A stretch of 64,000 nt of DNA from contig CASERY010000039.1 of NCBI GenBank assembly GCA_949290385.1, forward strand, positions 1 to 64,000. Reading direction: 5' to 3'. Position numbers and translations under genes: made by a program. Shown in pieces: positions 11,281-59,612 of this stretch; the first letter of the stretch is position 1; each line of letters starts with the position of its first letter. Below the pieces are notes generated by a model. That model did not search any database. It saw nothing but the letters and a program-made list of their open reading frames with translations, and was not told the DNA's origin. The DNA comes from an uncultured bacterium. GTDB taxonomy: Bacteria; Verrucomicrobiota; Lentisphaeria; Victivallales; UBA1829.

Positions 11281-12914
11281 TGAGCTGTTCTTTCTTTCCG
11301 TCTGTTTTGGATCGTATAATGTGCTTGCTGAAGTTTCAAAATAAACTGGTCGAGTGCCTCCGGGTTGGATGCAAAGTGTACATGAACATAAGATGCGCAG
11401 ATTTGATCGGATGCGTATCCGGCAGCAGACGGAACTTCTTTCATACGACTGTCCAGAGCATTCCAAAGGACCTGTATCTCATTATCTTGGCAGGTGAAGT
11501 TCTGCGGCTGTCCGGAAGTTTGCGTATTGGCTGGAAGAATTGAGGAATAATGGAATTCATGGCCGTGAATGACGGTGCCTTTTTTAAAAAAGGCATGGTT
11601 GGAAACACACGTTGCAGTACGGTAGCCCAGGGCGGAAAGCTTTTGATTCATTCTGGCGTTCCGTGGAATGAATCCGGCCATGGGGTGAATATGGCAATGC
11701 GTTTGCGTGGTTTGTGCGGATTGTGAACTTTGCGAACGGTTTGTTATGACAGAATCGTCTGTTTCCAGTTGATTGAGGAGATAAAGATACCCGCCGCATT
11801 CTCCGTACAGAATTCCGCCCAGTCCAACCAGATCTTTCAGGGACTGTTTCATGGAAAGATTGGCGGAGAGTTCTTCAGCGAACATCTCGGGAAAACCTCC
11901 GCCAAGCCAAACTCCTGCAGTGTTTTCGGGGAGTTTTTGATCATGAAGCGGGGAAAAGAATGCAATTTCCACTCCGCGATCCCGGAGCATGTCCAGATTT
12001 TCACGGTAATAGAAGTGAAATGCCTCATCCATGGCGACGGCAAGGCGCAGCGAAGTGTGTCGGGGAGATGATGTGCTGGAGATATTTTCCGGAAGAACCG
12101 GCCAAACAATGTCCGTATGATCAGAATGAGAGAAAGGGGGATGAGTAAATGGCTTTTCCTGAAAACGGCAGAGCTGAAGAAGATCATCCAGACGGCTGTG
12201 TTTTTCAAGTTCATCGGCAAGAAGATTGAGAAGATCTTCGGACAAGGGATGTTCCAGGGTTGGAATCAGGCCCAGATGTCTTTCCGGAAGAGTGAAGCGG
12301 CAGTCTCTTGGAAGCGCTCCGAGAAGAGGTGGAAGATGGGCTTTTTCCAGAGATTCACGCAAAATTTGAATATGTCTGAAACTTCCTGTCTGGCTTGCGA
12401 AAACGCCTGCAATCTTGAGCGAAGGATGCCAGCGTGTGAAGCCGGACACCAGTGGAGCAATGCTTCCTCCGATGCCTCTTGCATTGACTGTCAGAATTAC
12501 CGGAAGGTCAAGCAGAATGGCGCATTCTGCAGAGCTGCTTTCAATAGAATGAGGTGATTTTCCGTCAAAAAGCCCCATGACGCCCTCTATGACTGCAGCA
12601 TCTGCAGATCCGGCATAACGCGCAAAGGCGTGCTTCATGCCTTGAGGTCCCTGCAGAAAGGAGTCAAGATTGACAGACTGTATGCCACAGGCCATCTGAT
12701 GAAATTCCGGATCAATGTAGTCCGGGCCACATTTAAACGGCTGTATGCGGAGTCCGCGTTTATGCAGAGCGCGCAGCAGTGCAAGAGTCATGGTTGTTTT
12801 GCCGCATCCGGAATGAGTGCCTCCCAGAAGAACGGCATAGCGAGGGCCGTTGGATACTGCGGGCCCGGCAGCAGGAATGTCAGAGAAACAGGATTTTTCC
12901 GGCTCACAGGTCAT
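11277..12914 (-). CDS. cbiA: Cobyrinate a,c-diamide synthase
   Basis: Amidates the a and c side chains of (cobalt-)cobyrinate using ATP and glutamine. 545 residues. The N-terminal dethiobiotin-synthetase-like domain has the P-loop GTHSGCGKTTMTLALL and KCGPDYIDPEFH. The C-terminal class I glutamine amidotransferase domain has its nucleophile in YGECGGYLYL. It is somewhat longer than usual (about 450-460) because of a linker and a Thr/Gln-rich insertion near ITNRSQSSQ. No TAG; TGA stop. Both ends overlap neighbours by ATGA, typical of this operon. Confidence 0.92.
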   Translation of the reverse strand: MTCEPEKSCFSDIPAAGPAVSNGPRYAVLLGGTHSGCGKTTMTLALLRALHKRGLRIQPFKCGPDYIDPEFHQMACGIQSVNLDSFLQGPQGMKHAFARYAGSADAAVIEGVMGLFDGKSPHSIESSSAECAILLDLPVILTVNARGIGGSIAPLVSGFTRWHPSLKIAGVFASQTGSFRHIQILRESLEKAHLPPLLGALPRDCRFTLPERHLGLIPTLEHPLSEDLLNLLADELEKHSRLDDLLQLCRFQEKPFTHPPFSHSDHTDIVWPVLPENISSTSSPRHTSLRLAVAMDEAFHFYYRENLDMLRDRGVEIAFFSPLHDQKLPENTAGVWLGGGFPEMFAEELSANLSMKQSLKDLVGLGGILYGECGGYLYLLNQLETDDSVITNRSQSSQSAQTTQTHCHIHPMAGFIPRNARMNQKLSALGYRTATCVSNHAFFKKGTVIHGHEFHYSSILPANTQTSGQPQNFTCQDNEIQVLWNALDSRMKEVPSAAGYASDQICASYVHVHFASNPEALDQFILKLQQAHYTIQNRRKERTAQ

Positions 12915-13717: not shown

Positions 13718-15754
13718 TCAGGACTCCTTTCCGGATTTTTCGGAAGAAGGGGAATTTGGTATGTGGTTGTGGTGAAGTTCGGCGGCAGCTACGGTAACGC
13801 TGTCCGTTTTCTGCTTGAAAAGAATCAGTTTTTCCGTATGGGCTCCAGCCATGGCGGCAGCTTCACAGACAGAGTGAATCCCGAAATGTTCCCAGGCCTT
13901 TGGAGAAGGATGAGGAACGTCTTTGAGATTCAGTTCATCTGCGGAGAATCCGCAGAGTTCAATGTTGTGTCTGGAGCAGAATGCTTTTAAAGCCACTTCC
14001 GAGCATTTGAAATCGGCCGTGGCGATCCGTGCAATATTTTTGATTTCAAAGGATCCAGGAAGTTTCTGCAGAGCAGTTTTTAGTGCGGTTTCAATCTGCT
14101 GCTCGGAAACACCCTTGCGGCAGCCGATTCCAAGAACGATGTCAGGAGGTGCCGCAAAAAGAATTTTTTCTGAAAAAGGCTTTCCCTTGAAATTCTGAAA
14201 ATCTTTCTGCGTTTTCAGAAGAGCAAATCCCGTTTCGGAACGGATATCCTGAACAGAATCAACTCGCCGGAACTGTTTGGAGAAAGATGCAAAGACACGG
14301 GAGAAAATCCTTTCCGGCACGGCAAGATCAAGTTTTTGACCGCTGAGAATACTTTGCGCAGTTTTCCCGATGACTTCCGGATTGAGTATCCTCCAGAGAT
14401 TTCTTGCTGCAATATCATCCAGTGCCGGCAGGTTCCGGCAGTCGCTGGCCGTGGAAAGGACGGCTTGTCCGCCGGTGAGCTCAGCCGTCTGACGAGCCAG
14501 AAGATTTGCGCCTCCAATGTGTCCGCTGAGAAGGCTGACCACATACTTGCCTTCTTCATCACAGACAATCACAGCAGGATCCTGAGTTTTGCTTCCGCAC
14601 AGAGGCGCTATCGCACGAACTGCAATGCCGGATGCACAGATAAAAACAAGCCCGTCATAACGGTTCCAGATGTTCTTCACCGTTTCTGCAAGGGATCCTC
14701 TGCGGATTCTGAAAACTGTATGACTGAAATTTGCACAGACCTGGAGACTTTCAGGAACATAGATTTCTGCACATTCAAATTTTTCTGCGATGCTGGAAGC
14801 CGTGCGGAATCCCTGGTCTGTAACAGGGAGAAGCGCAATGCGTCCACGGAAGGAGTATTTCTCATGGCTCGAAGGCGCAGACAGCGTATTTTTTCCTGCG
14901 ATGCCGTCGGTTCCGCAAGAGGCCGGAATACTGGACTGGGCATTGGCTTTGAGCTGATGTCTTGAATCCGGCGAAGAAATACCTGCACGATAGGAATGGG
15001 AGAAACTGGGACTGTAGAGACAGGAATTGCCGCCTTCTTTTCTGAGGACCTCTCCAATAATAATCATCGCCTGGCGTGTGATATGCTGTTCCGAGGCTTT
15101 TTGAGCAATATTCTAAAGCGTTCCGCGCACAATTTTCTGATCCGGCCAGGATGCTTTCCAGACTACAGCGGCAGGGGTTTCCGGCGATTTCCCAGATTGA
15201 AGGAGCTCTCTGCATAGACTGTCCAAGGAGCCGGCACTGAGGAAAAAGCAGAGTGTAGCGTTTCCGAGGGATGCAAGAGCAGGGACATTTTCCGCTTCCG
15301 GAACAGGAGTCCTTCCTGCGAATCTTGTAAGAATGGCCGTCTGGGTGACATCATTCATGGTAAATTCTGTTTTCAGCGCAGCAGCTGCGGCAAAAACACT
15401 GGAAACACCCGGAATGACTTCATAGGGAATCTGAAGACGGTCAAGTTCCCGGAACTGTTCCGCCACAGTCCCGTAGATGGCCGGATCTCCTGTATGAAGG
15501 CGTACTGCACGGCGTCCCTTGTAATAAGCTTCAGCAAGAGACTGTATCACTTCCTGGAGTGTCATGTGTGCGCTGTTCCGCAGTTCGGCATGCGGCGCTT
15601 CCTGAAGAAGTTCCTCATTGACAAGAGAGCCCGCATAAATAATGAGATCCGCCTGACGCAGAGCATTCTGTGCACGGATTGTAATCAGGTCCCGGGCTCC
15701 GGGGCCTGCACCTGCAAAAAGAATGGGGTAGTGTCGGCATTCAGAATCAGACAT
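13718..15754 (-). CDS. cobM-cbiG: Fusion: cobalt-precorrin-4 C11-methyltransferase (CobM/CbiF) + cobalt-precorrin-5A hydrolase (CbiG)
   Basis: 678 residues. Residues ~1-240 are CobM/CbiF: FAGAGPGARDLITIRA, HTGDPAIYG, VIPGVSSVFAAAA, and the end ITRQAMIIIGEVL...YSPSFSHSYR. A Ser/Ala-rich linker leads to CbiG (from about residue 280): ALLPVTDQGFRTA, FICASGIAVRAIAPL, VVSLLSGHIGGAN, VLGIGCRKGVS and GFSADELN. TAG at 15113 lies in the last CobM helix (RGTL-x-NIAQKASEQ), so a standard reading would split CobM and start a false CbiG at 15067. The two activities act consecutively in the anaerobic route around CbiD. Start 15754 has GGAG about 9 bases upstream. TGA stop. Confidence 0.88.
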
Positions 15755-17051
15755 GCTGTTTTTCTCCATTTCCGGGAAACATTTTTTTATGAAATACGGC
15801 CAGAAAAACAGGATTTTCGGCTTTGCGCATGTGTCCGGAAGAACCAAGTTTTTCTGTTCTGGCAATATTGACTGTAAGAAATTCTGCCCGTTCAAGATCC
15901 TGCAGACGGTTTGGCATGGCGTTTAGGCACTGTTCCGTTTCCATCAGGATGGCTGTGGCTGCAAGAACTCCGCCTGGGTTCAGGCGACGGAACGTCTGAG
16001 GAAGAAGGTCCGAAAGAGCCTCCGGTCCACCACCGCCAAAAAAGACTGAATCGGGAGCTGGAAGGGTTTCCCAGAGATCTTCCATGCGCCCGGAATGAAG
16101 ATGAATATTGGAAAGTCCCGCCTCACGAATATTTTGCAGAATATCTTTACAGCGTTCGGGATTTTTTTCGACGGAATGAACTTCCAGTGCTTCACAAAGG
16201 GAGGCCGCTTCCAGTCCGACAGATCCGCTGCCTGCTCCGAGATCCCAGAGAACACCCCGGCGCAGACGAAGTTTGGATAATACAAGAACCCGGGTTTCAG
16301 GATGTGTAATCATATGATTCTGATGATGGTAGGTTTCATCAGGCAGCCCCAGGGCAAGAGCAGGAGAAAAGCCTGTTCCCTGTTCCGGGAGAATCAGCAT
16401 GGAAAGTCCGGAACAGGCGGGAAGTTCAGACAAATTTTTTAAAGTATCCGCCTGCAGATTTTCGGAAGGAAGTCCCAGATCTTCCGCAAGAAATGCTTCC
16501 CTTTGGCCGGCATCCGGAAATGCGTCAACGAGTTCTTTTGCCAGGACGGATGCACTGCGATGCGGGTCGCCGTAGACCACCGCACCGGGCGCCGTGAGTA
16601 CAGCACGGGCGTTCAGGATTTTGTCTGTACCGTGAACGCTGAAGAACCTGGTTGCAGACCAGGGGAGTTTCAAGCGTGCAAATGCCGTTTGAAAAGCGGT
16701 GGGAGCGGGATCTATGCGTACATGTTCGGGATTTGCCATAGCCAGTACCGTGGAGGCTATGCCATGGAAAAGCGGATCGCCGGAGGCAAGAATCAGCAGA
16801 TGCCGGCCCGGAGACAAATGCCGGAGAAGGTTTTTCAGCGTATCTTTCAGATTTGCTTCCAGCGGAATCAGCTGCGCATGCAGATCCTGTGGAAGCAATG
16901 CAAGCAGACGTTTTCCTCCGGCAATGATCTGTGCATGGCGGATCTCCGGGAAATCCAGTGGACCGCTGTCCGGAGGGATTCCTTTCAGAAGAATGGGCGC
17001 CTCTGAGAAATCTATAGAGGAAGAAGAGGATGTTTCTGTAAGAGGATTCAT
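15747..17051 (-). CDS. cobL: Precorrin-6Y C5,15-methyltransferase (decarboxylating), CbiE-CbiT fusion
   Basis: 434 residues. The N-terminal half is the CbiE-type methylase (LLILASGDPLFHGIAS, ILPEQGTGFSPALALGLPD). The C-terminal half is CbiT, with the SAM-binding motif LWDLGAGSGSVGLEAA and VFFGGGGPEALSDLL; CbiT methylates C15 and decarboxylates the acetate side chain. No TAG; TGA stop. Overlaps the next gene by eight bases, and the start lies two bases after the cbiD stop. Confidence 0.92.
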   Translation of the reverse strand: MNPLTETSSSSSIDFSEAPILLKGIPPDSGPLDFPEIRHAQIIAGGKRLLALLPQDLHAQLIPLEANLKDTLKNLLRHLSPGRHLLILASGDPLFHGIASTVLAMANPEHVRIDPAPTAFQTAFARLKLPWSATRFFSVHGTDKILNARAVLTAPGAVVYGDPHRSASVLAKELVDAFPDAGQREAFLAEDLGLPSENLQADTLKNLSELPACSGLSMLILPEQGTGFSPALALGLPDETYHHQNHMITHPETRVLVLSKLRLRRGVLWDLGAGSGSVGLEAASLCEALEVHSVEKNPERCKDILQNIREAGLSNIHLHSGRMEDLWETLPAPDSVFFGGGGPEALSDLLPQTFRRLNPGGVLAATAILMETEQCLNAMPNRLQDLERAEFLTVNIARTEKLGSSGHMRKAENPVFLAVFHKKMFPGNGEKQHV

Positions 17052-18972: not shown

Positions 18973-19592
18973 TAGAAATCAATTCCTTTCCTGGCCGGAA
19001 TTCCCCGGTCATAGGGGTGACGCAGTGAATGTATGTCGGAAACAAGGTCGCAGATATCCAGCAGTTCCTTTTGCGCATAGCGTCCTGTTATGCAGACATT
19101 GAGTTGCGGACTTCGTTCAAGCAGTGCATTGCAAACCTCCTGAAACGGAAGAAGTTTTTTCCAGAGGGCAATATTCAGTTCATCCAGCACCAGCAGGTTC
19201 AGTTCGGATTGTTGAAGAAGTTCTTTCGTTCTCTGAAAGGCTTTGGATGCACATTCCTCCTGAACTTCCCGGGAGGCTTGTCGCCCCGGCCCGAAGGGCT
19301 CAAAGGAAATTCTTCCAGGAAAGATTTTTGTGAAAAAATTCAATTCTCCGGTTTCAAACAGGGAACTTTTGACAAACTGCAGAACAGCTGCTTTGCCGCC
19401 CCAGCCAAGGGTTCTGATGACCATGCCGAACGCAGATGTGCTTTTTCCTTTGCCGTCTCCAGTTATATTGATCAGAAGTCCCGGGAGGTGGTTTTCCTGC
19501 GTATTGCTGCTGCCTGATAAACGGCTTTCCGCGTCGGAAAAAACGTTCTTCAGAGAGATGCTGCGTTTTTCATCAGAGTTGAGTTGACTCAT
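18972..19592 (-). CDS. cobO: Corrinoid (cob(I)yrinate a,c-diamide) adenosyltransferase, CobO/CobA/BtuR type
   Basis: 206 residues. P-loop-like GDGKGKSTSAFGMVIRTLGWGGKAAVLQF, then GPGRQASREV and VLDELNIALWKKLL are typical of the CobA/BtuR family, which transfers the adenosyl group from ATP to the corrin cobalt. Start at 19592 is preferred over the ATG at 19607 because it forms the same ATGA overlap with the upstream cobD-cobQ stop seen elsewhere in this operon. TAA stop. Confidence 0.92.
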   Translation of the reverse strand: MSQLNSDEKRSISLKNVFSDAESRLSGSSNTQENHLPGLLINITGDGKGKSTSAFGMVIRTLGWGGKAAVLQFVKSSLFETGELNFFTKIFPGRISFEPFGPGRQASREVQEECASKAFQRTKELLQQSELNLLVLDELNIALWKKLLPFQEVCNALLERSPQLNVCITGRYAQKELLDICDLVSDIHSLRHPYDRGIPARKGIDF

Positions 19593-22204
19593 TTTAATCC
19601 CATCCACCGGTAAATCTGTTTCATATTGATGCGTTCACGGACATGGTCCGCCAGACGGTTGAGCGATATTTCCGGATTGTAGGATGCTGTCCTGTCGCCC
19701 GGCAATGCCTGAAGTCCGGACCGGAGACGAACTTCATTTAAGAATATACGACGGAATGCGTCGTCGTCAAAGATTCCGTGCAGATAACAGGCGAAAAGGT
19801 GACTTTTTTGAATTCCAAGAAGACGTCCATCCGGGCCTGTCATGCAATCTTCTGCAGAGATTGCTTTCCCGTTAAGAGAGCTTTCTCCATGATGTATTTC
19901 ATAACCGCGGAGAAGATGATGACGGAATTCAAGAACGGTTTGACGAAGTATCTTTTCTTTTTGGAGCTGTGTTACCAGCGGAAGAAGTCCAAGCCCGGCT
20001 GTTTCTGCTCCGGGGGCCGATTCAATGCCGTAAGGATCCTGCACAAGGAGCCCCATAAGCTGCATGCCTCCGCAGATTCCTGCAATGGAGGTACCTTGTG
20101 AGGCGGCCTGGAGAATTTTTTCATCCAGATGGGTTTCCCGCAGGAATTCCATGTCGGAAGCGACTGATTTGCTTCCGGGCAGAAGAATGAGATCCGGATT
20201 GCCGAATTCCTCTGCCGAATGAATTTTTCGGAGGATTACGTCTGCTTCCAGTTCCAGAGGCGTGAAGTCTGTAAAGTTGGATATATGAGGAAACGCAATC
20301 AGCACACAGTCTATGGTCTGGTCCAGTTTCGGCACCGGATGAATCCAGCTGAAATTGACGGAATCCTCTTCAGGGAGAATCAGATCTTTCAGGTAATCTA
20401 CAACTCCGACAACAGGTTTGCCCGTATAACGAAGCATATCCTCATGGGCAGATGAAAGCAGGGATGGATCTCCCCGGAATTTATTGACGATGAATCCTTT
20501 TAGTAAATCCCGTTCCCATGGCTCAAATGTTCCGTAAGTTCCCAGGAAGGATGCATACACGCCTCCCCGGTCAATATCGCCGACCAGAAGAACGGGAGCC
20601 TGGGCATATTCCGCCATACGCATATTGACGATATCCGATTTTTTCAGATTGATTTCCCCGGGACTGCCAGCACCTTCCAGAATCATGGCATCCACTTCAG
20701 AACTCAAGGAATCATACGAGGCCTTCACCGTTTCAAAGAGTTCCCTTTTCCGGGAAAAGTATTCACGAACACGCATATTTCCAACCGGTTTCCCGGATAC
20801 AATAACCTGAGATCCTGTTTCTGAACTGGGTTTAAGCAGAATCGGGTTCATTCGCACATCCGGATCCAGACGGCAGGCTTCCGCTTGAAGAATCTGTGCT
20901 CTTCCCATTTCAAGTCCGTCTGCGGTAACTCCTGAATTTAGTGCCATATTCTGAGCTTTGAAAGGGGCTGCCTGATAGCCGTCCTGGAGCAGAATCCTGC
21001 AGAATGCTGCAGTGAGAATGCTTTTGCCTGCATTGGAGCAGGTCCCCTGAAGCATCAGGGCAGGAGTTTTTTTCTTCCGCATGACAGCCGGGAATTTCAG
21101 CGTTTTTTCAAGGACTTTCTGACTGGGATGGAGAATCTGGTGCAGCGCTTGAAACAGCCGATCCTGATCCTGTTCTTTTCTTACAACTACACGGATCCAC
21201 CGAGGAGAGGAGAGCCCCGGATAATTGCCACAGTCCCGGACGCAGATATGTTTTTCTATCAGAAGACGTTCTGCCAGCGGAACAGAGGTGTCGTTCCGGA
21301 TCAGAAAATACGGCGCTTCCGATGGAATACTGTAGAGCTCCGGAAAGGAATCCAGAAGAATCCTGCGGAAGTGCTGCTTCAGCTTTTGAACGTATATTCT
21401 TGACTGTTCTGCATAATTTTCTGTATTTGTACAGAGAAAAATTCCACATTCAATCTGTGCGGATCCAAGAGGCCAGGGGGTCTGAAAAGCACGGAGTTTA
21501 TCTATGACAGAAGGGGATCCGGCACAGAAGCCAAGACGGAGTCCGGCGGAGGCATAGAACTTTGTCATGGATTTGACCACAAGAAGATTGGGCGGCATAC
21601 TGTTTTGAATCAAAGAAATTTCCTGAGGATTTTCACAGAAATCGGCAAAGGATTCGTCCACAGATAGAAAGATTTCCGGATGCCTTTCCGCAAATATTCT
21701 CAGATCCTATGCCTTGATGCAGCGTCCGGAAGGATTGCATGGATTCCCGAGAAACACCAGGTCCCCTTCTTTAAGAATCTATTCAAAGGCCTGAAGATTC
21801 AGCAGAAAATCATTTTCCGGCAAGAGAGGATATCTGAGAATCTCCATCTTTTCCATACGGCAGACTCTTTCGTATTCCAGATAGGCCGGAACAGGAATAA
21901 CCGCCCGTTTAAAGGAAAAAATTTTCGGGATCAACGAAAGGATCTCTCCGGCGCCGTTTCCTGCAAGAACAGATCCGGATTCAAGCCCCCATGTCTGTTC
22001 GAGTTTTTCACAAAGTCTTTCCCCATGGGGATCCGGATAGGGAGAAATGGCGTCAAAGGCGTGGAAATAAGCCTGAAAAAGTCCGGGGGGCGGCCCGAAT
22101 GGATTCAGATTAATGCTGAAGTCCAGCAGATCCGACGGACTGCAATGCGCTTTTTCCGCCAGAACGCGCAAATTTCCTCCATGAAAATAATTCAGGTCTG
22201 TCAT
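19589..22204 (-). CDS. cobD-cobQ: Fusion: L-threonine-O-3-phosphate decarboxylase (CobD-like) + cobyric acid synthase (CobQ/CbiP)
   Basis: 871 residues. The N-terminal ~375 residues are a PLP fold-I aminotransferase-like domain: FHGGNLR, DFSINLNPFGPP, GNGAGEIL, FLGNPCNPSGRC, VDESFADF and the PLP-lysine region VVKSMTKFYASAGLRLGF. TAGs at 21779 and 21707 bracket the FLGNPCNPSGR segment, so a standard reading cuts this domain in two. From about residue 380 comes CobQ: MLQGTCSNAGKSILTAAFCR, NMALNSGVTADGLEMGRAQ, LVGDIDRGGVYAS and the amidotransferase core GICGGMQLMGL. The first half makes aminopropanol phosphate and the second amidates cobyrinate, and both products feed CbiB. ATGA overlaps at both ends. 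Confidence 0.9.
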
Positions 22205-23034
22205 GATTCTCCTCCCTGATTTTTCTGAACTGTTTCGGAATCCGCACATCCAGGACGGTGAAGCAGAGGTGGAATCCAGCAGGGAGGTTCATCCTGAACA
22301 GGAAGAACGGAACCCCGGGTAATGCCGAATACGTCGTGAAGAATTTGTTTACACCCGAATCTTTCAGGGGAACCGTCAAAGATCATGCGGCCCTGAGCGA
22401 AGGCAAGAATTCTGTCTGAACAGCGCATGGCAAGATTCACATCGTGGAGAACCTGGATGACGGTCATTTTTCTGGACCTGTTCCAGGAACAGACCAGTTC
22501 CATAATTCGGATTTGTTCTGCCGGATCCAGAAAAGTTGTCGGCTCGTCCAGAAACAGGATGGATGGATGCTGAGCGAATGCGGCAGCAAGTCTTGCTTTC
22601 TGGCGTTCGCCGCCTGAAAGACGGTTGATCGGGCAGTTCCGGAAAGACTGAAGGCCCGCAAGATTCATGGCTTCCTCAACGGCTTCTTTGTCTTCTGCAG
22701 TCAGAAATCCATGCCAGCGACGGAACGGGAAACGACCGGTACTTATCAGCATTTCCACAGTCATATCTCCGGGAACAGCGTCACGCTGGGAAAGAAACGC
22801 CATGTGCCTTGCCCGCATGGCCGGGGAAAGAGCAGAGAGGTTGGTTCCGTTGAGAAGTACCTTCCCTGAAAGAGCTTTCAAAAGGCCTGCAGCAGTTCTG
22901 AGCAGAGTGGATTTTCCACATCCGTTTTTCCCAAGCAAGGTAACAATGCTCCCGGAGTCGACATGAAGAGAGATGGATTCAAGAACAGGGTGCCGGATGG
23001 AATAGCCGACAGTCAAGTTGGAAAGGTCAAGCAT
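22201..23034 (-). CDS. btuD: ABC transporter ATP-binding protein, FecE/BtuD family
   Basis: 277 residues. Walker A GKNGCGKST, ABC signature LSGGERQKARLAAA, Walker B ILFLDEPTTFLD and the H-loop VLHDVNLAM are intact. It energises the permease encoded upstream. The gene overlaps btuC by eight bases and cobD-cobQ by ATGA. The corrinoid substrate is inferred from the operon; the family also serves iron siderophores. Confidence 0.9.
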   Translation of the reverse strand: MLDLSNLTVGYSIRHPVLESISLHVDSGSIVTLLGKNGCGKSTLLRTAAGLLKALSGKVLLNGTNLSALSPAMRARHMAFLSQRDAVPGDMTVEMLISTGRFPFRRWHGFLTAEDKEAVEEAMNLAGLQSFRNCPINRLSGGERQKARLAAAFAQHPSILFLDEPTTFLDPAEQIRIMELVCSWNRSRKMTVIQVLHDVNLAMRCSDRILAFAQGRMIFDGSPERFGCKQILHDVFGITRGSVLPVQDEPPCWIPPLLHRPGCADSETVQKNQGGES

Positions 23035-36203: not shown

Positions 36204-37607
36204 GTGAAGACGGCAGGATTCAGAAGACTTGAAAAATCTTTTATCCGAATTTTGGGAATGATTCTTCTCCTGCTGTTGATCGCACCGACGATATGCCATG
36301 CAGCAGCAGAAGAAGAGAGTGAATTCAATCTTCTGCGTGAAAAAGCCCATGCCGGGGATCCCGCAGCCCAGTTCAAACTGGGAAATTTATACTTTTATGG
36401 AAGTGATTCTGTAAAATCGAGTCCGGAACTTGCTGTTTACTGGTATAAGAAAGCTGCAGCACAGGGAATCCCGGAAGCTCAGTTCAATTACGGCCTTTGT
36501 TTGGAAGAAGGATTCGGAACTGAAAAAAATATGATAGAGGCCATTCATTATTATGATCTTTCCGGAGAACGGGGTTTTGTTCCTGCTTTGTACCGGAAGG
36601 CCATGCTGCTGATCCATGGGAAACCCCGAACCCCGGAAATGCTTAAAGGCATGACTCCGGAAGAAATTCAAAGAGTCAACTCTTTTATGAATCCTTCTGA
36701 AGGAGCAGCTCTTTTGGAGAAGATTCTTGAGAAAACAGACCTTCCGGAAGGAAAAATAGAACTTTGTGACTATCTTTTGAAAACGCTTCCGGAAGACATT
36801 TCAGAGCGGGAAAAACTTTGTACCAGAATTTATACGCTCCTCCGGGAGGCGGAAGCTGCCGGTTCCGGATAGGAAAATCCCAAGCTCTACCGTTTGCTGG
36901 CAGACTGCTTTTTCGGAGGATTTGGATGCAAAACGGATGAGAAAAAGGCGGTTGAACTGCTGAAGAGAGCTTCTGAAGCTGGAGATACGGAAGCCATGGT
37001 GAAGCTGGCCTTCTGTTTGGAACATGGCGCAGACAGTCCTCCCGATCGGAAACAGGCCTTTCAATGGTATCGGAAAGCGGCTTTTGCCGGATTCCCATAT
37101 GCTCAATTCAAGTATGGAGAATATATCGCTGCCGGATATGAGGAAGGACAAGGTCTTTCCGAGGCTGTCCGCTGGTACCAGAGAGCTGCAAACTATCAGT
37201 GTCCTGAAGCCCTTTACAGAATGGGGGTCTTGACTGCTGAAGGAATTGGCATGGAAAAAAATCTTGCCTTGGCGTCTGAAAATTTTCTCCGGGCTGCCAA
37301 ACTGGATTATGCCCCGTAGCAAGTCGCTCTGGCTGTTTATTTTTTAAAAGGAAGCGAGGTGATTCAGAAGGATGAATCTGCCGCATATTACTGGTTCAAA
37401 CGGGCTGCCGATTCAGGAGGATCCCTGGAGGCTTAGAAATGGACATAGCTATGTCTGGCATATGGTGTTGGATGTCCTATGAATATGGAACAGGCACTTC
37501 ATTATATGGATTCTGCAGCGATAGCCGGAGATCTGCAGGCTGCGGAACTTTCCCGGAAAAATCCTTACGACTGGCCGTCTCCGGAAGTTTTCAAACCTGA
37601 GCCTTGA
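36204..37607 (+). CDS. Secreted Sel1-repeat protein with four internal TAG codons
   Basis: 467 residues. Hydrophobic signal peptide with likely cleavage after CHAAA, then Sel1/TPR-like repeats: GDPAAQFKLGNLYFYG, GIPEAQFNYGLCLEEG, GDTEAMVKLAFCLEHG, GFPYAQFKYGEYIAAG. TAG at 36870, 37317, 37434 and 37446. In the last full repeat the sequence is GSLEA-x-KWT-x-LCLAYG: the first TAG takes the place of the Gln of 'AQ' present in three sister repeats. That is direct internal evidence for Gln. GTG 36204 is six bases after GAGG. Such proteins act in protein-protein contacts; the partner is unknown. Confidence 0.85.
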
Positions 37608-39038: not shown

Positions 39039-40568
39039 ATGATGAAAGATATTCCTGTACATTTTTGTCTGAAAGCGGCTATTCTGGGTGCGTTTACGGC
39101 AATACTCAGCAGTTATGAAATTCTGTTTTCCCAGGCATTGGTGTTCGCCGGACTGGCTTTTTTTCTCTTTTGTTTGAACCGAAGCCGGGAGGCTGAATAT
39201 GCTTCAGAAAAAATCGATGCTTTGCAAAGGAATGCAAATGACAATGCTCATGAAATGACGGATATAAGAAAAATGACGGGAAAACAACTTCGTCATTTTT
39301 TCGTCAAAACATAGATAGGAAATGCTATCTTCTTGATTCTTATAGGATTTGTCGGAAGTTTGCCTGTTCTTTTGCAGCCGGATGGATATTTCAACGGTGT
39401 ATAGGCTAAAATATGGGCTCTGTTAGGGAGCCTGTGCTTTGCATTGTTAACAGGCAAGTGCGTGCAATGGGTTTGGAAAAAGCCTGAAATCTCGGCAGAA
39501 TACTTTTTCCTCCTCCTTTGTGCCGCCTCATTTCCTGGATTTCTGATTGCCCGGATTCCAGTCTTTGTTTCCCTGTTTCCTTATGTATGGAACGGGCTTT
39601 TGTAGGGCGCGGTGTGGAATGCTTTTTTTCAGGGCCTGTGTTTCTTCATTGTATAGACAGGAATCCGCAAGGTCCCTCTGGCTCAGGGACGGAAAAAATG
39701 GATTCCTCAATGTGTGGTTATTCTACTTGTCTGTACGGGATTGTCCCAGGGAGGAGTGTACTGGAACTACCTGCTGATGCGTTAGCCTGAAGTCGCAATC
39801 CTGATGAAGAGTCCGGCGCATGGAAGCATTCCGGAGGATCTCCGTGGGAAAATTCCTATGCTTGATGGAGACTTGTTTTTTACGGATGAGGGGATATTCT
39901 GGAATGCATGTGCTTCAGAGTCAGAGGTGGAAAAGCGAATGCACGGGGAAGGCGTCTGCCGTGTAACCGAAGAAAAAAACGAAAATGGCATGATCCGCTA
40001 CAAGCTGGAATATCCGGAATCTGAACCATTAGAACCTTTTATTCTTGTGGAGACTTCCTGTACAGAGAAATCCATGTATTGCTGGGCTGATCCTGAGAGC
40101 TTTTATTACTGGAAAAATCCGGAAACGGGGACCGTAAGCAGTTTGAATATTCGTGCAGGCCGGCGTCGGGACCTGGCTGTGGCGCCTGAACAGCATGCTT
40201 TGCGCCGGGATCAGCATGGAAATGTGCTTCTGGTGGATGGAGGTCGTTTCTACCAGGAAAACCGGGATGGAGAAATATCTTCATTGAATGTCCAGATAGA
40301 AGATCTTCCTGCAAAGTCTTTCTGCAGGTTTGCATCTATGTCTGAGGATCAGCGTTATATTGTATGCGATTATATTCTGCTGAAAGGAGGAAGAATTCCA
40401 TTCCGGATGTTTATATGTATTCGGCTTGAGGATAATGCTGTTTATTATTTTGCATTTTTCCAAGGAAAGCCTTACGTCGGGAAAAACACAAAAGAGATGG
40501 CCTCAACTCCGGCAGCTTTTTCAGAAGAAGGGGAAAATATTGAAAAGAAAGATTCAAACCTGCTCTGA
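39039..40568 (+). CDS. Polytopic membrane protein with soluble C-terminal domain and five internal TAG codons
   Basis: 509 residues. About seven hydrophobic segments fall within residues 8-245 (CLKAAILGAFTAILSSYEIL, FLILIGFVGSLPVLL, FLLLCAASFPGFLIARI, VVILLVCTGLSQGG); a ~255-residue soluble domain follows. TAGs at 39312, 39402, 39603, 39654 and 39783 all lie in the membrane half, between or at the ends of helices. The standard code would yield only a 91-codon piece and the soluble part from 39804. No family recognised. It lies among other accessory, poorly conserved genes. TGA stop. Confidence 0.72.
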
Positions 40569-41568: not shown

Positions 41569-43782
41569 TTAAAACCTTTGACGCTTTATCTATGGATCAC
41601 ATTGAAATTGAAAAAGTTTTATTTCATTCGATCTGCCCATGACAATGTAAATTCCCCAGGCAGCCAGAACACTGAAATAAGGAAGAACACAAAGATGAAA
41701 ACGGGGAAGCGGCAGGATCCCCGGTATGATTAAATAGTAGCCGGCAAAAAGCAGAAAAACAAGGAATGCCAGAAACTTTCTTTTCAGAAGCATCCATATT
41801 ACAGCCGAAACTGCAAGCAGATCACAGAAGACTGTAAGAATCAGCAACGGCAGGGTAACCAGGAAGGGCCCCCAGTTCCCACGGAAGTAATGCAAAGCTC
41901 CGGCAAGGATCCCTTCACGGTTGATAATATCCAGTGTGTTTCTGCCATGGACCGTAATGCCCAGATTTTCCAGGAACGCCGGAATATCCGGCAGTAGAAT
42001 CAGCGGCTGAAAATGCATGAAGAGAAAATGAAAAGGATATTGGAGAAGAATTTTTTTCATGGCATTTTCCTGCCAGGAGAAACGGCTGTCAGGTGACTGG
42101 TAGAGTTCCGGATGTTCTGCAAATTCCCTGTTCATATCTGCCATGTACTGATTGCGCAGTTCATCAAGGGACTGATTTTCCGCTCGTGCCTGAACCGCAG
42201 CTGCTTCATGTTTCAAACGGTCTGCAGAAATGCCGTCGATTCTCCACCCTGCACCTAGTGTGTGGTTTCTGAGGATCCAGGGCGCAAGCAACTATGCGGT
42301 TAGGACCAGTGCACAGACTCCAAAGCGGATTTTTTCCCGGAATGGCGGCTTCGGAAGAAAACACAGGACAAAAAGACAGGGAAGAATCCATGCAATATTG
42401 ATAGGCCGTATATAAGTTCCTGCGATGGAAGTCAGTACCGCTGCAAAGAAGAAGTATCCGAATCCGCTTTTCATAAACTTCAGGAAGAACAGCATCTGGA
42501 AGGCCACAATCCAGGCGAAAAGTGCATCTGAAAGAAACATGGGCGTATATGCAATTGCTGTGGGATTCAGCGCAAAGAGAAAAGCTGAAATCCAGGAAAC
42601 TTTCCAGTTTGCATAAAGTCTTGCCGCCCGATAAACAGGAAGAACAGCCAGTCCTCCCAGAATACAGGAAATGATGATACAGAACTGCAAACTTCCTCCA
42701 CTGAGCAGAAGAAGAACTGCCAGATAAAGCGGATAGCCCGGAGTTCGTATCAGAGCCGCTTGTCCGGATCCGGGACCTGTGCTGAATGTTCCGTCATGCG
42801 CCAGAGAAAAAGCCGGCCCGAGGTATGTGGCTGAATCGGGTCGACACAGAAGATCTGGATTCATAAGCCCGGGAATGCTGTAGAGCAGGCGGATTGCAAC
42901 TGCGGCAAAAACCAGTAGAAGGATAGCCCGTTCCGCTTTCAGCGCAGATTTTTGAACTTTGGCGAGATCTGGAATCTGCTCCAGACTAGCCCGGATGTCT
43001 TTTAAAGGATGCCATTTCCATTTCAGACAGGTCCATAGGCTTTGAATGCCATCCTTCCAGCGGATTTTTTTCCCTTCCTTCTTTTTCCGGGGATGATATG
43101 CAATGGGCACTTCATAAATTTCAAATCCCAGCCTCAGTATTTTGGCGGTGATTTCGCATTCCCAGTCAAACCTGTTTCCCTGAAATGGAAGATTTCGGAT
43201 CAGATCTCCTCGAAATGCCTTGTAACAGGTCGGTTCATCTGTGAGTTCCGCATGGAACAGAAGATCGATACAGAATGTCAGACTCAGGGCCCCCAGATAA
43301 AAAATGGGAGAGGAGTGAAGGCGGTTTTTCCCCGATTCCTGCCGGGATCCGTAAACGGCAGCATATTTTCCCTGCAGAATTGGTTCAATACATTGAAAAT
43401 AATCCTGAGGGTCATATTCCAGATCTGCATCCTGAATTATGACAACATCTCCATGAGAGTGCCGTATGCCCGTCCGGACCGCGCTGCCTTTGCCCTGATT
43501 GGACTGCGTGAAGACCTGCGGCCTGATTTTCAGCGTTTCACTGAATTCTTCCATCCATTTCTGAATGATTTCAGAAGTCCCGTCTGTGGATCCGTCATTT
43601 ACGACAATGATTTCTTTGCAGATATCGGGCAGGGAGGTCTGTCGAACCTGTTCCAGAAGTTTATAAAGTGTAGCTTCCTCATTGAAGACCGGAATAATGA
43701 TCGAGAGAACTTTTTCTTCAGCAAGAAGATCCTTTTTCTCCTATCCTTCCTGAGCAGACAACAATTCAGAGGTCGTCTGCAT
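41569..43782 (-). CDS. Fusion: family 2 glycosyltransferase + multi-pass (GT-C-like) membrane domain
   Basis: About 737 residues. The N-terminal GT2 domain, of the dolichol-phosphate-sugar/polyprenol-phosphate type, has LSIIIPVFNEEATLY, VNDGSTDGTSE, SNQGKGSAVRTGI, the metal site QDADLEYDP and YKAFRGDLI. From about residue 270 a membrane part of some eight or more helices has an N-terminal loop rich in acidic/aromatic residues, like ArnT/PMT enzymes that use lipid-linked sugars. TAGs at 43741 (codon 14), 42292 (inside a helix after ALVLTA) and 41590 (seven codons before TAA 41569). Start uncertain; ATG 43782 lacks a good ribosome site. Confidence 0.78.
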
Positions 43783-44268
43783 AGGGGCACGGCAGGTGCC
43801 TGCAGATTTTTTTGTTCCCGGGAAAACAGCCGGATTTTCAGTAGAAACGTTCACGTTCAGCAGTTCTTTCCTGAATGGTTGCAAAAGCGGCGCCGTCGGG
43901 GAAAACCGGTTCCGGTACCGTAATGATACTATGATGCTTCCGGAATCTTTTTCAATGAATTCGTGTAAATTATGGATAAGTTTTTTTCTGCCTGACCTCG
44001 CAGGTATGTCTGAAACCTTCAGAAAAGGTGGCAGGACTTCCTGGATTTTTTCCTGCTGAAACGTTCTTTTCCGGAAAGAAATGTTCCAGTCAGACCTTAA
44101 ATACCTGAGAGTTGCATGTTTTTATGTCTCCCAAATGGAGCAGAACAGTACTTCCTGTGTATCGGCAGAACAGGAATCCGGGAAAATGAAAACGGCATCC
44201 CGGATTTTTTTAATTCAGGATGCCGCAAACATCTTAAACAAAAAGTTTATGCAAGGTCATGAAAAAAA
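43783..44268. other. Intergenic region between the glycosyltransferase and argS, about 490 bases
   Basis: A minus-strand promoter for the glycosyltransferase may be TTGAAA followed 16-17 bases later by TAGTAT (about 43925-43957). The right part has the argS terminator at 44181-44225. No supported coding frame, though the frame upstream of 43782 stays open for about 45 codons. Confidence 0.4.
44181..44225 (-). terminator. Rho-independent terminator of argS
   Basis: CGGCATCC (44225-44218 on the minus strand) pairs with GGATGCCG (44200-44193), followed by TTTTCATTTT. It lies about 45 bases after the argS TAA. Confidence 0.6.
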
Positions 44269-46122: not shown

Positions 46123-47139
46123 TTACAAGGTGGTTTTGATTACTGTGGTGGTGATGCCGGGAACCACTACAATGGAATAGCTGCCGAAACAGGCAGGAAT
46201 CAAAACCGAATGGCCAAAAGGTACTTCTGTACGGAAGTGATCATTTTCAACAGCAATAGGCGCATTGACTGCAGTAAGAATATGACAGCTGCGGGTCGTT
46301 TCTGTGTTGTCTCGCCAGGGTTCCACGAGTTTCAGATCATCGCAGTGGAAATTCAGACAGCGGTTAGTCAGCGGATATTTTCTGTTGTGATCGGTAATAT
46401 TGGTTGCTCCGGAGACTCGGGAGGCTGTTCGGTCCATAAAGTCCATGCACAGCGTAGCCTCTTTGATATGGAGCGGGCGCATTTTCCCGGTGACAGGATC
46501 AATCCGCCCCCAGTCAGTTACACGATAAGTTGTGTCGCTGTTGGACTGGATTTCCAGCAGCAGATTGCCTGCCCCGATGGAATGGATGCGTCCTGCATTG
46601 ATAAAGTAAGCGTCTCCCGGGATGCCATCGAATGTCTGGAGAAGGTTTTCCACATCCGGAGAATATAAAAGATCCAGGAACTGTTGTTTTGTGGCAGAAC
46701 TTTTCAGCCCTGCATAAATTTTAGAATGGGCATCCGTGTCAATAAGGTACCACATTTCTGATTTGGGTTCGGCATTATTCCTGAGCTTCTAGGCGGATTC
46801 TTTTCCCGGATGTACTTGAAGAGACAGCTGTTTGCCTGCATCGATGATTTTTACAATGATCGGGAAACGCGACTCTCTGAATTGTGCACCGACAAAGTCC
46901 TGTCCGAAAACCTGAACCAGTCTGTGAATGGACGTCCCTGCAAGAGGTCCGTTAATGACCGTGCTTTCGAGTCCGGGACGGTCACAGATATCCCAGGCTT
47001 CTCCAATGGGGCCGGCATCCAGAGGAAGCTCCCGGTTCAGCACGGAACTGAGTTTGGTTCCTCCCCAGAGGACTTCCTTGTAAAAAGGTTCAAAAAGCAG
47101 GGGGTACAATTCCTCCCGCTCCATTTGCTGTGTAGCCAT
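46123..47139 (-). CDS. manA: Mannose-6-phosphate isomerase, class I
   Basis: 338 residues; interconverts mannose-6-P and fructose-6-P. Zinc ligands and active site: LSLQVHPGKE, EMWYLID, GRIHSIGAGNLLLEIQSNSD and YRVTDWGR. TAG at 46789 lies right between LSLQVHPGKESA and KLRNNAEPKSEMWYLID; a standard reading would cut this enzyme into two non-functional halves, which makes it one of the clearest read-through cases. Start ATG 47139 has AGGA seven bases upstream. TAA stop. Confidence 0.9.
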
Positions 47140-47610
47140 ATTGCATCCTGTTTCAGGGTTATATCTTTCTGAGACAATATATAACGGAATCATGAGATTT
47201 ACAGCTTCTGTATTTGAAAATACAAAAAATTTCAGAAAAAAAGCATTTCGTAAAAAAGCAGGATTAGTTTTTCTCCCGTGAAAATCTTGTCTTTCATGCG
47301 TAAGATTTTCGCAGCTTTGCGGGAGGAATCTTGTAAGGAAAAAGGCGTTTTCTGCGTTCCTGCGGAACTTCGGAGAGAAAAAGCTGAATTTACTTTTGAG
47401 TACAGACGAAAGACAGGATTCCCTTCCGGGGACAATATTAAAACTGGGATTTATTTTCAAATGGATTTATGCAGATCATTTTTTTGAATGAAAGGGCGGC
47501 TGAATACCTTTCTAAAAGCAAAGTTTTCTTTTTTTTGAATGTTGCTCCCGTGCGAGAATGACTGCATAATGAATGGAAAAGGGAAGGGTGCGGCTGTTTT
47601 GTTTCACTAA

Positions 47611-53201: not shown

Positions 53202-55502
53202 TTACAGCACACATTCCTTTTTCAGGCACATGACCTGATAGACTCCATCCACTGATTTGGTTCCTTCTGTAACATGTTCAAAGCCGGGGAATTCACGATC
53301 CCAGGATTCCAGCGCTTTGAGGTACTTGATCTGCGGACTGTTTTCATCGCCGAAGACTTCTCCGGACATGAGCATGGGAATGCCGGGAGGATAGGGAATG
53401 ATAGAGTTTGCACTGACACGTCCTGCCAGCTTGGAAGAAGGCACGAATTCAACTTCATTCCTGACAATCTTCTAGTATGCGTCATGGGGCGATACCACGG
53501 GTTTTGGAATGGAGGAAAAGGCTGCATTGAGAAGTTCACCCGGTTGATTTTCACGAATATATCCAAACATGCGTTCCCCAAGATCTTTCAAGCCGCACTT
53601 ACCGTAATAAGCGGGATATTTTTCTGCAAGATCCGGGAAAATTTCGGAGATTGGAGTATTTTCCTGATAGTGTTTGCGGAAATTCAGCAGAACATTGACC
53701 AGTGTTCCCCATTTGCCCTTGGTAATGCCCATGGAGAACAGGAACATAATCTGGAAGTCTGTTGTCCGGGTCGGTACAATGCCGTGCTGATACAGGTAAC
53801 TTGTCACGAGAGCGGCAGGAACGCCATGATCGGCAATTTTTCCGTTGACATCCATTCCCGGTGCAAGAATACTGACTTTGATAGGATCCAGCATGACCCA
53901 GTTTTCCTCCCCGAGATCTTTGAAGCCATGCCATTCATCCCCGTCTTCAATACGCCAGCAGCGCTGGTCATGGATCAGCAGATCTCTGGGGGCGTCTTTG
54001 AAATCATAAGTCTTGCCGGTTTTGTGGTCAGTGACCTTTTCTGCGTTCCAGGGCTTGAAGAACCAGGAACCTTTTTTCTGGGCTTCATCGTAGAGTTTTG
54101 CCATGGTTTGACGGAAGTCCACAGCTTCTTCTATGACTTCTGTGGTGAGGGATTCGCCGCTGCGGTACATCATCATGCTGGAAATGTCGTTGGATGCACA
54201 GATGGCGTAGAGCGGGGAGGTCGTGGAATGAAGCATGTAAGCCTGATTGAAACGGTCGAAATCAATAGCGCCTTTCCCATTGCGTACGTGAATGTAGGAG
54301 GCCTGCGACAGGGCATTCAGCAGTTTGTGCGTGGAATGGGTGGCAAATACTGTGGGACCCTGATGACGGGCTGGATCTCCCCGCATGACGTAATGGTCTT
54401 CGTACATGGGATTGAAACGGGCATATCCGTACCAGGCTTCATCGCAGTGGATGCGGTCACAGCTTTCCGCAAGAATTTTTTCCACTTTCGCGGAATTGTA
54501 GCAGAGGCCGTCATAGGTGCAGTTGGTGAAGACGGAATAAACAGGTTTGCCGTCGTTATGTTTCAGAGGAAGGTCCTGAATTTTCTTGGCAATAGCGTCT
54601 TTTGTCATTTCCGACTTCCGGATGGGGCCGATAATGCCGTAGCTGTTGCGGGTGGGGATCATGTATACGGGAACAGCGCCTGTAAGAATCAAACCTTCTT
54701 CGATGGACTTGTGGCAGTTGCGGTCGCAGATCACAAGATCATTTTCTGCAATACAGGCCTGCATGATGGTCCGGTTGGAGCCGGACGTGCCCACAACAAT
54801 GGAGTAGGACTGGTGAGCACCGAAAACTTTTGCTGCAAATTTTTCGCTTTCCCCGAATGCTCCTTCATGATCCAGCAGAGATCCGATGGAACTGCGTTCG
54901 ATACCGGTATCGGTGCGGAAGAGATTTTCCCCATAGAAATCAAAGAATTTCTTGCCGGCGGGCGTCTTGGTGAATCCGATACCGCCTTGATGACCGGGGG
55001 CAGCCCAGGAATATTCATGATTGTGTTCATTGTATTCCCAAATGGCTTTCATGAGGGGGGGAAGAAGGGTTTCACGGAAGCGGATAATAGCGCCTTCAAT
55101 GCGTCCGGCAATGAATTCCGGACTGTCTTCAAAAATCCATACGAACTCATTGGCCAGTTCCATGAGTGCAAAGGATATGTGTTCCGAGGTACTTTCCCGG
55201 TCGGCCCGCAGAAAGACTGGACCGGATGCCTGGCGTTCCCGGATTTTTCGCAGCAGCTGGACTTCAGAATGTTCTCCCTTGTGGTCCTGGTTCATGCTGC
55301 TTGCCACCAGAATGGCATCGAGATCCATATTGGTTTCAATGAGCGGTTTTGCTTCCAGACTGCAGGCAGCACGGATTACCTGAATATGACGATTTTCCAG
55401 CGATTGTGCCACACGGTCAATGGCTCTTTCCATGATTTTGCTGGCATCACTTTCAGAATCTCCAACAATGAGCACTTGTCTGGACTCGAGTTCATTATTC
55501 AT
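53202..55502 (-). CDS. Orn/Lys/Arg decarboxylase, closest in motif to inducible lysine decarboxylase
   Basis: 766 residues, PLP fold type I. N-terminal response-regulator-like wing (VLIVGDSESDAS), then the PLP core with WAAPGHQGG, GTSGSNRTIMQA, HCDEAWYGYARF and the Schiff-base lysine in ATHSTHKLLNALSQ, and the C-terminal domain GRVSANSIIPYPPGIPMLMSGEV. TAG at 53472 lies in PHDAY-x-KIVRNEVE; in E. coli CadA/LdcC, as I recall, this reads PHEAWQRQIKGEVE, so the TAG aligns with Gln. Removing the carboxylate consumes a proton, giving acid resistance with the neighbouring antiporter. AGGAG is nine bases ahead of ATG 55502. TAA stop. Confidence 0.9.
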
Positions 55503-55838
55503 GAATAAGATCTCCTGTAAAAATAGTTTCTGTTCAGCTGTTTTTTTGAATCGGTTGCATCTGAAAAACAGCACACTGTCCCGGGGAAAGAAGAAGGAGA
55601 ATCCGGCGAGTTCCAGAAACCCGGGGACACTTGCGGGCTTGAGGCCCGAATTCCCTTCTGTTTCTTCTGTTTTTAACGGAATATGCCGAGAGAGGATTGA
55701 AACCGGACCGGCAGGAAAAAAGTCTGCGTCGAAAACGTTTCAGACGCATCCCGTTACTTTCTCTGAACGGCACTTAAAGTTGATTTGATTCACAGAAAAT
55801 TTCGTGATGTTTTTTCAACATTTCCAGAATCAAATTTC
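55503..55838. other. Intergenic between antiporter and decarboxylase, about 335 bases
   Basis: A small GC-rich stem (CGGGC-CTCAA-GCCCG, about 55633-55647) is present without a T-run. The decarboxylase could be expressed from its own promoter here or by read-through from the antiporter gene. No gene seen. Confidence 0.4.
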
Positions 55839-58271: not shown

Positions 58272-59612
58272 TCATGCTCTGCACTATAAGTCGACCGAAT
58301 CTATCATGATTGCGGTGTTCCATAAAATTCCAGAGCCTGTCAAACCGGGACCTGTGGAAGCTGCGCGGATAGAGGGGATTTTGTCTTCATGATATGGCTG
58401 AGTTTTAATCTCTTCCTGTGCTGGAGAGTCAGGTCTTTCCTGTTCCTGTCCGGTGGATGCTTCTGACTGAGGAACGGGCACTTCCGGCACACTGAAGTCG
58501 AAGCCTTCTCCGATCACAAAGGACTGTACTTTGGATGGATCCTGCGGATTCAGCTGGAAGATCAGGGCACGAAAATCCGGATTCTTTTCATGAAATTCCA
58601 GAGCGAATTCCGGTCCTGCCACAAAGATGGCGGTGGAGAGAACATCCGAATCCATCCCGGAGGGCGCTATGACTGTAACGGAAAGCATGTTTTCCACCGG
58701 ATAGCCGGTTTTCGGATTGATGATATGGGAGTAACGTTTACCATTGATCATCAGGTAACGTTCGTAGCTGCCGCTGGTGGATATGGCTTCATTCTGCAGC
58801 GTTACAATGCCGCAGATGGAAGATGGATCACTGCTGAAAGGGTTGCGGATGCCTGCTGAATAGGGAGTCTCCCGAAGGCCCATGCGTGTGAATAGATTCC
58901 TGAACGAAAATGGTTGTCCCGCGGTTTGTTTAGGCGGTGGCGGTTCCGGGAGAGCCAGGGCATTGCCTCCGATATCAATAAAACCGCGTTCAAAGCCGAA
59001 ACGCTGTTTCAGTTGTTTGGCGGCATAGTCCAGGGCATAGCCTTTGGCGATTCCGCCAAGATTGATGGACATGCCGTCGACGGTGAAGAAAACGGTGTGA
59101 TTCTAGTCGTCAAAGCGGACTTTGTCCAATCCGACTTTCTTCAGGGCTTCGGATATCTCCTTTTCCGAAGGCAGCTCCTTGCGCTGTCTGCGGTAATCCC
59201 AGATCCGGGTCAGGGGGCCCACTGTAATATCGAAGGCTCCGTGGGAAAGACGGTGCATTTCCCGGGCCTTGGAAAGAACTTCCCAAAGTTGGTCACTGCA
59301 GTGGAACGGTTCTTTTGCGGCAGTGGCATTGAGCTTGGCCAGTTCGCTTTCCGGATTAAATATATTGAAGCGTTTTTCCACTTCCCGGATGGCATCCTGA
59401 ATGCACAGGAAGGCTTCATTGAACTGATTCTCCTGCGGCAGATACAGTCGGGCTGTTGCAAGTGTGGACATGGTTGAAAAAAGGGTTGTCTGTGTATAGA
59501 CGGTTTTGCCTTTTGCAAAAAAGGCCATGTAGACAACCAGAAGAATCAGGGAAAGCGAGACAACTTTCAGGATTCTGCGAACATAGGGATTTCTTAAGAT
59601 TGTTGAATTCAC
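58272..59612 (-). CDS. apbE: FAD:protein FMN transferase (ApbE)
   Basis: 446 residues. Single N-terminal membrane segment (VVSLSLILLVVYMAFFA), then the ApbE core: FNPESELAKLN, GAFDITVGPLTRIW, LGGIAKGYALDYAA, GFIDIGGNALAL, SHIINPKTGYPV and VIAPSGMDSDVLSTAIFV. TAG at 59103 (RFDD-x-NHTVFFTVDGMSINLGGIAKGY) sits in the middle of the domain; a second at 58284 lies three codons before TGA 58272. It attaches FMN to Thr of Rnf/Nqr-type electron-transfer proteins. The ~80-residue Pro/Glu-rich tail is unusual. Confidence 0.9.

Follow-up and report, generated by a model that had tools for sequence, protein, structure and literature searches.

Probable reassignment of the UAG stop codon to alanine in an uncultured Lentisphaeria bacterium

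The window analysed here, i.e., the whole 64-kb stretch of DNA under study, lies on contig C39 of a MAG of 2.68 Mb (168 contigs, 78% complete, 47% GC) and carries a gene for a Sel1-repeat protein whose reading frame contains exactly four stop codons, every one of them TAG (Table 1). With these codons translated as either glutamine or alanine, the product is recognized as a Sel1-repeat protein by Pfam PF08238 with 176.9 to 179.6 bits (gathering score 30.7), and alanine scores 2.7 bits above glutamine at the TAGs. The family's other genomes encode Sel1 homologues with sequence identities between 35% and 44%, none of which contains an in-frame TAG. Moreover, when TAG is read through, the window holds 48 in-frame TAGs across 49 ORFs of at least 100 aa—a number which, together with the TAG-free state of the Sel1 homologues in the family, argues that the TAGs of the Sel1 gene are not there by chance. 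Between 10282 and 22249 lies a cobalamin biosynthesis cluster whose genes include those for CbiB and for two fusions, one of the tetrapyrrole methylase/CbiG type and one of the aminotransferase/CobQ type. The named loci closest to a window protein include an uncultured Victivallis and other Lentisphaeria, and on this ground we take the lineage to be Lentisphaeria.

Table 1. Coordinates of the Sel1-repeat gene, its in-frame TAG codons and other TAG-containing genes of the window
Feature	Position	Strand	Description
Sel1-repeat protein gene	36204..37607	+	467 aa; start GTG or upstream TTG; stop TGA
In-frame TAG	36870..36872	+	residue 223; variable column; homologues include D 13, K 7 of 29
In-frame TAG	37317..37319	+	residue 372; repeat-motif Ala position; homologues A 15, C 8, S 6
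In-frame TAG	37434..37436	+	residue 411; repeat-motif Gln position; homologues Q 21, M 4, A 3, L 1
In-frame TAG	37446..37448	+	residue 415; repeat-motif Gly/Ala position; homologues A 23, G 6
MTHFR-like gene	7206..8660	+	two in-frame TAG; residue 271 Gln in three relatives
CbiB/CobD gene	10282..11466	-	three in-frame TAG
In-frame TAG of CbiB	10605-10603	-	residue 288
Tetrapyrrole methylase/CbiG fusion	13718..15895	-	one in-frame TAG; A 7, S 5, E 5 among 24 homologues
Aminotransferase/CobQ-type fusion	19589..22249	-	two in-frame TAG, both columns variable
Membrane-protein-like ORF, without Pfam match	39039..40568	+	five in-frame TAG
Glycosyltransferase gene	41569..43884	-	three in-frame TAG; residue 531 Ala in two relatives
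Phosphomannose isomerase gene	46123..47460	-	one in-frame TAG; relatives A 2, R 1
Orn/Lys/Arg decarboxylase gene	53202..55574	-	one in-frame TAG, within C-terminal domain
ApbE gene	58272..59612	-	two in-frame TAG

The columns occupied by the four TAGs were compared against 29 homologues of the same family, and their places in the repeat register were read by eye from the printed repeat segments. Just one of the three informative columns favours glutamine. Residue 372 takes the alanine position of the A-Q pair in the repeat before the last full one, a position occupied by alanine in eight of the nine other repeats. Residue 411 falls on a position that is glutamine in four of the nine, the remainder having leucine, methionine or alanine, and residue 415 on a Gly/Ala position with glutamine in none of the other repeats. 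The first-pass annotation of this DNA had treated the repeats as an internal test identifying UAG as glutamine, on the strength of the motifs AQFKLG, AQFNYG and AQFKYG. All three are present as quoted, and the register does agree that the TAG at 37434 takes the glutamine position of the last full repeat; glutamine is found there in 21 of the 29 relatives, and the column is not consistently any other residue. The further TAG that it pointed out at 37446 is in frame and occupies the Gly/Ala of the motif shared with 37434. That observation was nevertheless selective, the remaining TAGs of the gene having never been set into the register: the same internal test yields glutamine at 37434 but alanine at 37317 and Gly/Ala at 37446, and the homologues concur. 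As detailed below, there is strong support for the proposal of UAG as a sense codon, while the glutamine meaning is drawn from a single column, and alanine appears the better single meaning genome-wide. Elsewhere in the window, residue 288 of CbiB sits in a near-invariant alanine column (A 42 and S 3 of 46, with one gap), and HMM scores there place alanine above glutamine by +2.3 to +4.8 bits depending on the model, Pfam included.

To describe UAG usage beyond the window, we counted TAGs genome-wide in sampled stretches taken in three batches. In-frame UAG occurs in conserved, intact genes throughout: 293 homologue-supported ORFs contain 200 TAGs in 122,446 codons, or about 1.6 per 1000, with at least one TAG in 133 of these ORFs, and each of the 50 large sampled loci (>1500 codons) contains TAG. 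Over all sampled ORFs the tally is 416 TAGs in 628 ORFs, which takes in homologue-less ORFs that are surely spurious in part. Among the genes carrying TAG are rpoA, secY, ruvA, alaS, trpE and prfB. For 101 of 113 genes, the ORF ends, at TGA or TAA, no more than 15 aa from the C-terminus of the homologues. UAG as a sense codon throughout this genome is therefore strongly supported. Near-identical strain copies were also sought within the genome so that TAG could be compared with another allele, and none proved useful.

Several further observations accompany these counts. Of the 111 genomes in the order that gave an rpoC match, two carry an in-frame TAG in this gene: ours, where it lies opposite a gap in the single homologue compared, and one other (G021). 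The latter represents a different genus within the family; its rpoC (C16:344-4417) contains a single in-frame TAG, its rpoB none, and it has an RF1, so that the TAG may be an error or a case of readthrough. A 623-aa ORF (L359) displays two near-identical protein stretches—either two ORFs or two stretches—with a TAG at the same place in both; one of them has a second TAG where the matching site of the other encodes serine. Interspersed repeats, in pieces of about 250–290 bp with 79–88% identity between contigs of the genome, occur at L024, L176, L177 and L183. Finally, over all TAG sites in homologue-supported ORFs, A follows the codon in 44% of cases and T does so in 10%, compared with 29% and 13% for CAG, and the excess of A arises mostly at non-alanine columns.

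A search of the assembly for the RF-1 domain gave two places, corresponding to RF2 and to a 192-aa release-factor-like protein. RF2 scored 524 bits with the RF2 model, and its own gene holds an in-frame TAG, whereas RF1, the factor that terminates at UAG, was not found by profile search of this 78% complete MAG. By comparison, RF1 scored above the curated cut-off in 56 of the 61 genomes searched; the five without a passing RF1 are the present genome, one that falls marginally under the cut-off (G001) and three that are 69–78% complete (G016, G034 and G046). Because the MAG is incomplete, the failure to find RF1 becomes persuasive only when combined with the TAG evidence. The profile match across the RF2 gene (L057 4413-5510 and upstream) crosses one in-frame TGA, possibly the programmed frameshift site that is usual in this gene, as well as the one in-frame TAG. 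The RF1 locus was also approached through synteny in search of a clean deletion, and the neighbour gene found in the genome was not the syntenic orthologue.

The tRNA complement was examined along the same lines. There were 46 tRNA matches in the assembly, with no scores between 39 and 14 bits, and a 5'-truncated match is of the Glu type as judged by its loop. None of the 46 has the anticodon CUA in this incomplete MAG, of which five short sampled contigs (C14, C17, C18, C25 and C35; L273, L275, L276, L347 and L351), all masked as N, lay outside the search. Some essential tRNAs are likewise missing from these matches, namely Ile(GAT), Ala(UGC) and all Ser tRNAs except Ser(UGA); tRNA-Gln(CUG) and tRNA-Gln(UUG) are both present. 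Since the set is incomplete and five contigs are masked, the missing tRNA(CUA) is weak evidence against a dedicated tRNA. A relaxed pattern for a CUA anticodon produced four matches, all rejected: one is a tRNA-Arg(UCU), and the other three yielded no tRNA with ARAGORN, Rfam or visual inspection.

The meaning of UAG was assessed from the residues aligned with it, mainly those of the family genomes G002, G008 and G028 together with cobalamin loci. At a local identity of at least 0.3, this gave 134 TAG columns in 91 genes, in which the commonest residue was Ala in 40, Gln in 14, Glu in 12 and Lys, Asp and Ser in 10 each; the columns are scattered over many residues, and many are polar. In a set of 96 columns, alanine was commonest at 34% of TAG columns, compared with 58–65% for the four alanine codons (GCN) and no more than 17% for any further codon in the comparison. 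Glutamine was commonest at 14% of TAG columns in this set, compared with 30–37% for the glutamine codons (37% for CAG) and about 7% for AAG and GAG. Where the relatives are invariant (at least two homologues), TAG stands opposite Ala 14 times, Gln, Arg and Ser three times each, Lys and Leu twice each, and other residues once; the three glutamine columns, each invariant in three relatives, are those in RuvA, RecJ and MTHFR. The ratio of invariant Ala to Gln columns is thus 14:3 for TAG, as against 20:365 for true glutamine codons (Fisher p = 3e-14) and 1680:4 for true alanine codons (Fisher p = 3e-5), so that UAG columns do not behave like those of glutamine codons, and glutamine is over-represented for an alanine codon. 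In terms of profile log-likelihood, alanine exceeded glutamine by 13.1 bits at a local identity of 0.3 (column bootstrap support 66%), by 23.9 bits at 0.4 (79%) and by 26.5 bits at 0.5 (82%); glutamine was second best, and serine, glutamate and lysine were lower than alanine by at least 25, 56 and 63 bits. In control runs, the method recovered the correct residue for 300 of 300 sense-codon samples at each of two levels. A first likelihood run on up to 67 columns had given glutamine at low stringency and alanine at high stringency, and more columns turned the result to alanine everywhere. The segments compared with relatives were picked by eye as conserved-looking, with some families recognized, so the sample was not strictly blind; an early batch, selected before alanine clearly led glutamine, gave the most equivocal result.

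As a further line of evidence, TAG was translated as alanine or glutamine and the products were rescored against HMMs. Alanine gained 4.9 bits in GT9, 3.1 in TrpE, 2.7 in MATE, 2.5 in RpoA and 1.9 in ChrA; every swap of 2 bits or more was in favour of alanine, and the largest loss was 1.4 bits (UvrC). The sum over a set of 20 genes is weak at about +2 bits for alanine. Some of the genes rescored besides these 20 are illustrations rather than an unbiased sample because they were chosen partly for their alanine-looking columns. For scale, a true CAG read as alanine loses about 0.6 bits, and a true GCG read as glutamine about 0.4 (from at most five genes). Judging from the aligned columns and profiles, alanine thus appears a better single meaning for UAG than glutamine, which comes second.

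Glutamine, delivered either by a tRNA-Gln(CUA) or by tRNA-Gln(CUG) with a first-position mismatch, is on balance an unlikely meaning of UAG. It would account for residue 411 of the Sel1 protein, with Q in 21 of 29 homologues, and for the invariant glutamine columns of RuvA, RecJ and MTHFR; it ranks second in likelihood, both tRNA-Gln(CUG) and tRNA-Gln(UUG) are encoded, and the single transition from CAG to TAG would be synonymous. However, glutamine would then also have to occupy 14 invariant-alanine columns and small positions of the Sel1 repeats, in spite of the 20:365 split of true glutamine codons, and it is the commonest residue at only 14 of the 134 TAG columns, the figure for CAG being 37%, and falls 13–27 bits under alanine. 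We hold it to be just as improbable that UAG is ambiguous, with alanine and glutamine or other residues inserted in a transitional code by, e.g., a tRNA-Ala(CUA) in competition with near-cognate tRNAs. Such ambiguity fits the departure of TAG from both true alanine and true glutamine codons (p = 3e-5 and 3e-14), as well as the A that follows 44% of TAGs but 29% of CAGs, mostly at non-alanine columns—yet many of the polar columns could stem from young TAGs created by single-base changes in CAG, GAG or AAG.

The two other explanations are far less plausible still. That the TAGs are an artefact, whether of pseudogenes, of errors in sequencing or of contaminating DNA from a recoded phage or eukaryote, would sit well with a fragmented MAG (168 contigs, 78% complete), but we consider this very improbable, in that reading through TAG alone extends the frames to the ends of the homologues, rpoA, secY, ruvA, alaS, trpE and prfB are affected along with all 50 large sampled loci, and the nearest homologues belong to the same bacterial family. 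Pyrrolysine or another non-standard residue is the least credible reading, with hardly any weight in our view: UAG codes for pyrrolysine in other organisms, but the PylS profile reaches 20 bits here against a cut-off of 178, twelve ordinary control genomes score similarly below that cut-off, and TAG is spread across all kinds of genes and includes invariant-alanine columns.

Taken together, the data make it quite likely that UAG, a rare sense codon in this organism, means alanine, and that RF1 was lost and a tRNA-Ala(CUA), as yet unseen, now reads the codon. Alanyl-tRNA synthetase reads the G3:U70 pair and disregards the anticodon; a change of anticodon alone would therefore be enough, making an alanine tRNA an easy donor. 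TAG may already have been rare as a stop, in which case disappearance of the codon would have been followed by loss of the release factor and then by capture. The relatives, in which 269 ORFs end in TGA (158), TAA (99) or TAG (12), are in keeping with this order of events, as so few TAG stops mean that few genes would be harmed by the loss of RF1. Once RF1 was gone, a tRNA-Ala with its anticodon mutated to CUA could have taken over UAG, and the TAGs at glutamine or other polar columns might have arisen recently by point mutation, for instance from CAG, and be tolerated as alanine. On mutational grounds we infer that the two excesses are not equivalent: the glutamine excess is explicable if UAG means alanine, since CAG, the commonest glutamine codon, becomes TAG by one transition, whereas the excess of TAG at invariant alanines would be left unexplained if UAG meant glutamine, because a GCN codon is two or more mutations away from TAG.

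It also seems reasonably likely that a bacterium with a 2.7 Mb genome at 47% GC has turned UAG from a stop into an alanine codon after losing RF1, which would represent both the first reassignment of UAG and the first stop-to-alanine code in a bacterium. No bacterial genome with a reassigned UAG came up in our literature search; subscription journals and preprints lay mostly outside it, so that the novelty is uncertain. If true, the case would test the codon-disappearance model beyond tiny AT-rich genomes and indicate that RF1 loss is possible in nature, as a natural counterpart to RF1-less laboratory strains. On the practical side, standard gene calling cuts short almost one in two genes of this organism, whose completeness estimate is probably depressed as a result.

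The closest known parallel is found in the mitochondria of green algae of the Hydrodictyaceae/Neochloris group, where UAG, scarce beforehand, encodes alanine and an alanine-type tRNA(CUA) was found (PMC6821328). The codon is shared with our genome, as is the amino acid on the best reading, but the algal case concerns an organelle genome with the tRNA in hand and an altered mtRF1a, as opposed to a 2.7 Mb bacterium in which neither tRNA nor RF1 was found (PMC6821328). In genetic code 15, UAG means glutamine in crAss-like and other gut phages (PMC9523058), which deploy suppressor tRNAs inside standard-code hosts (PMC10879173); as in our genome, UAG is read as sense in a prokaryotic setting, but code 15 involves phages and glutamine, whereas ours is a cellular genome for which alanine fits better (PMC9523058). 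In the sources cited here, the stop codon described as reassigned in bacteria is UGA: a 2021 survey states that the bacterial code changes previously known concerned this codon, and the bacterial reassignments covered there turn UGA into Trp or Gly or affect arginine codons, UAG figuring in none (PMC8629427). Like the present case, these are bacterial, genome-wide and read from conserved columns, the difference being the codon (PMC8629427). Finally, recoded E. coli without RF1 resembles our genome in the absence of this factor and in UAG readthrough; that strain is engineered and leaves UAG unassigned, whereas in our genome UAG is present in 133 of the 293 homologue-supported ORFs (PMC6207430).
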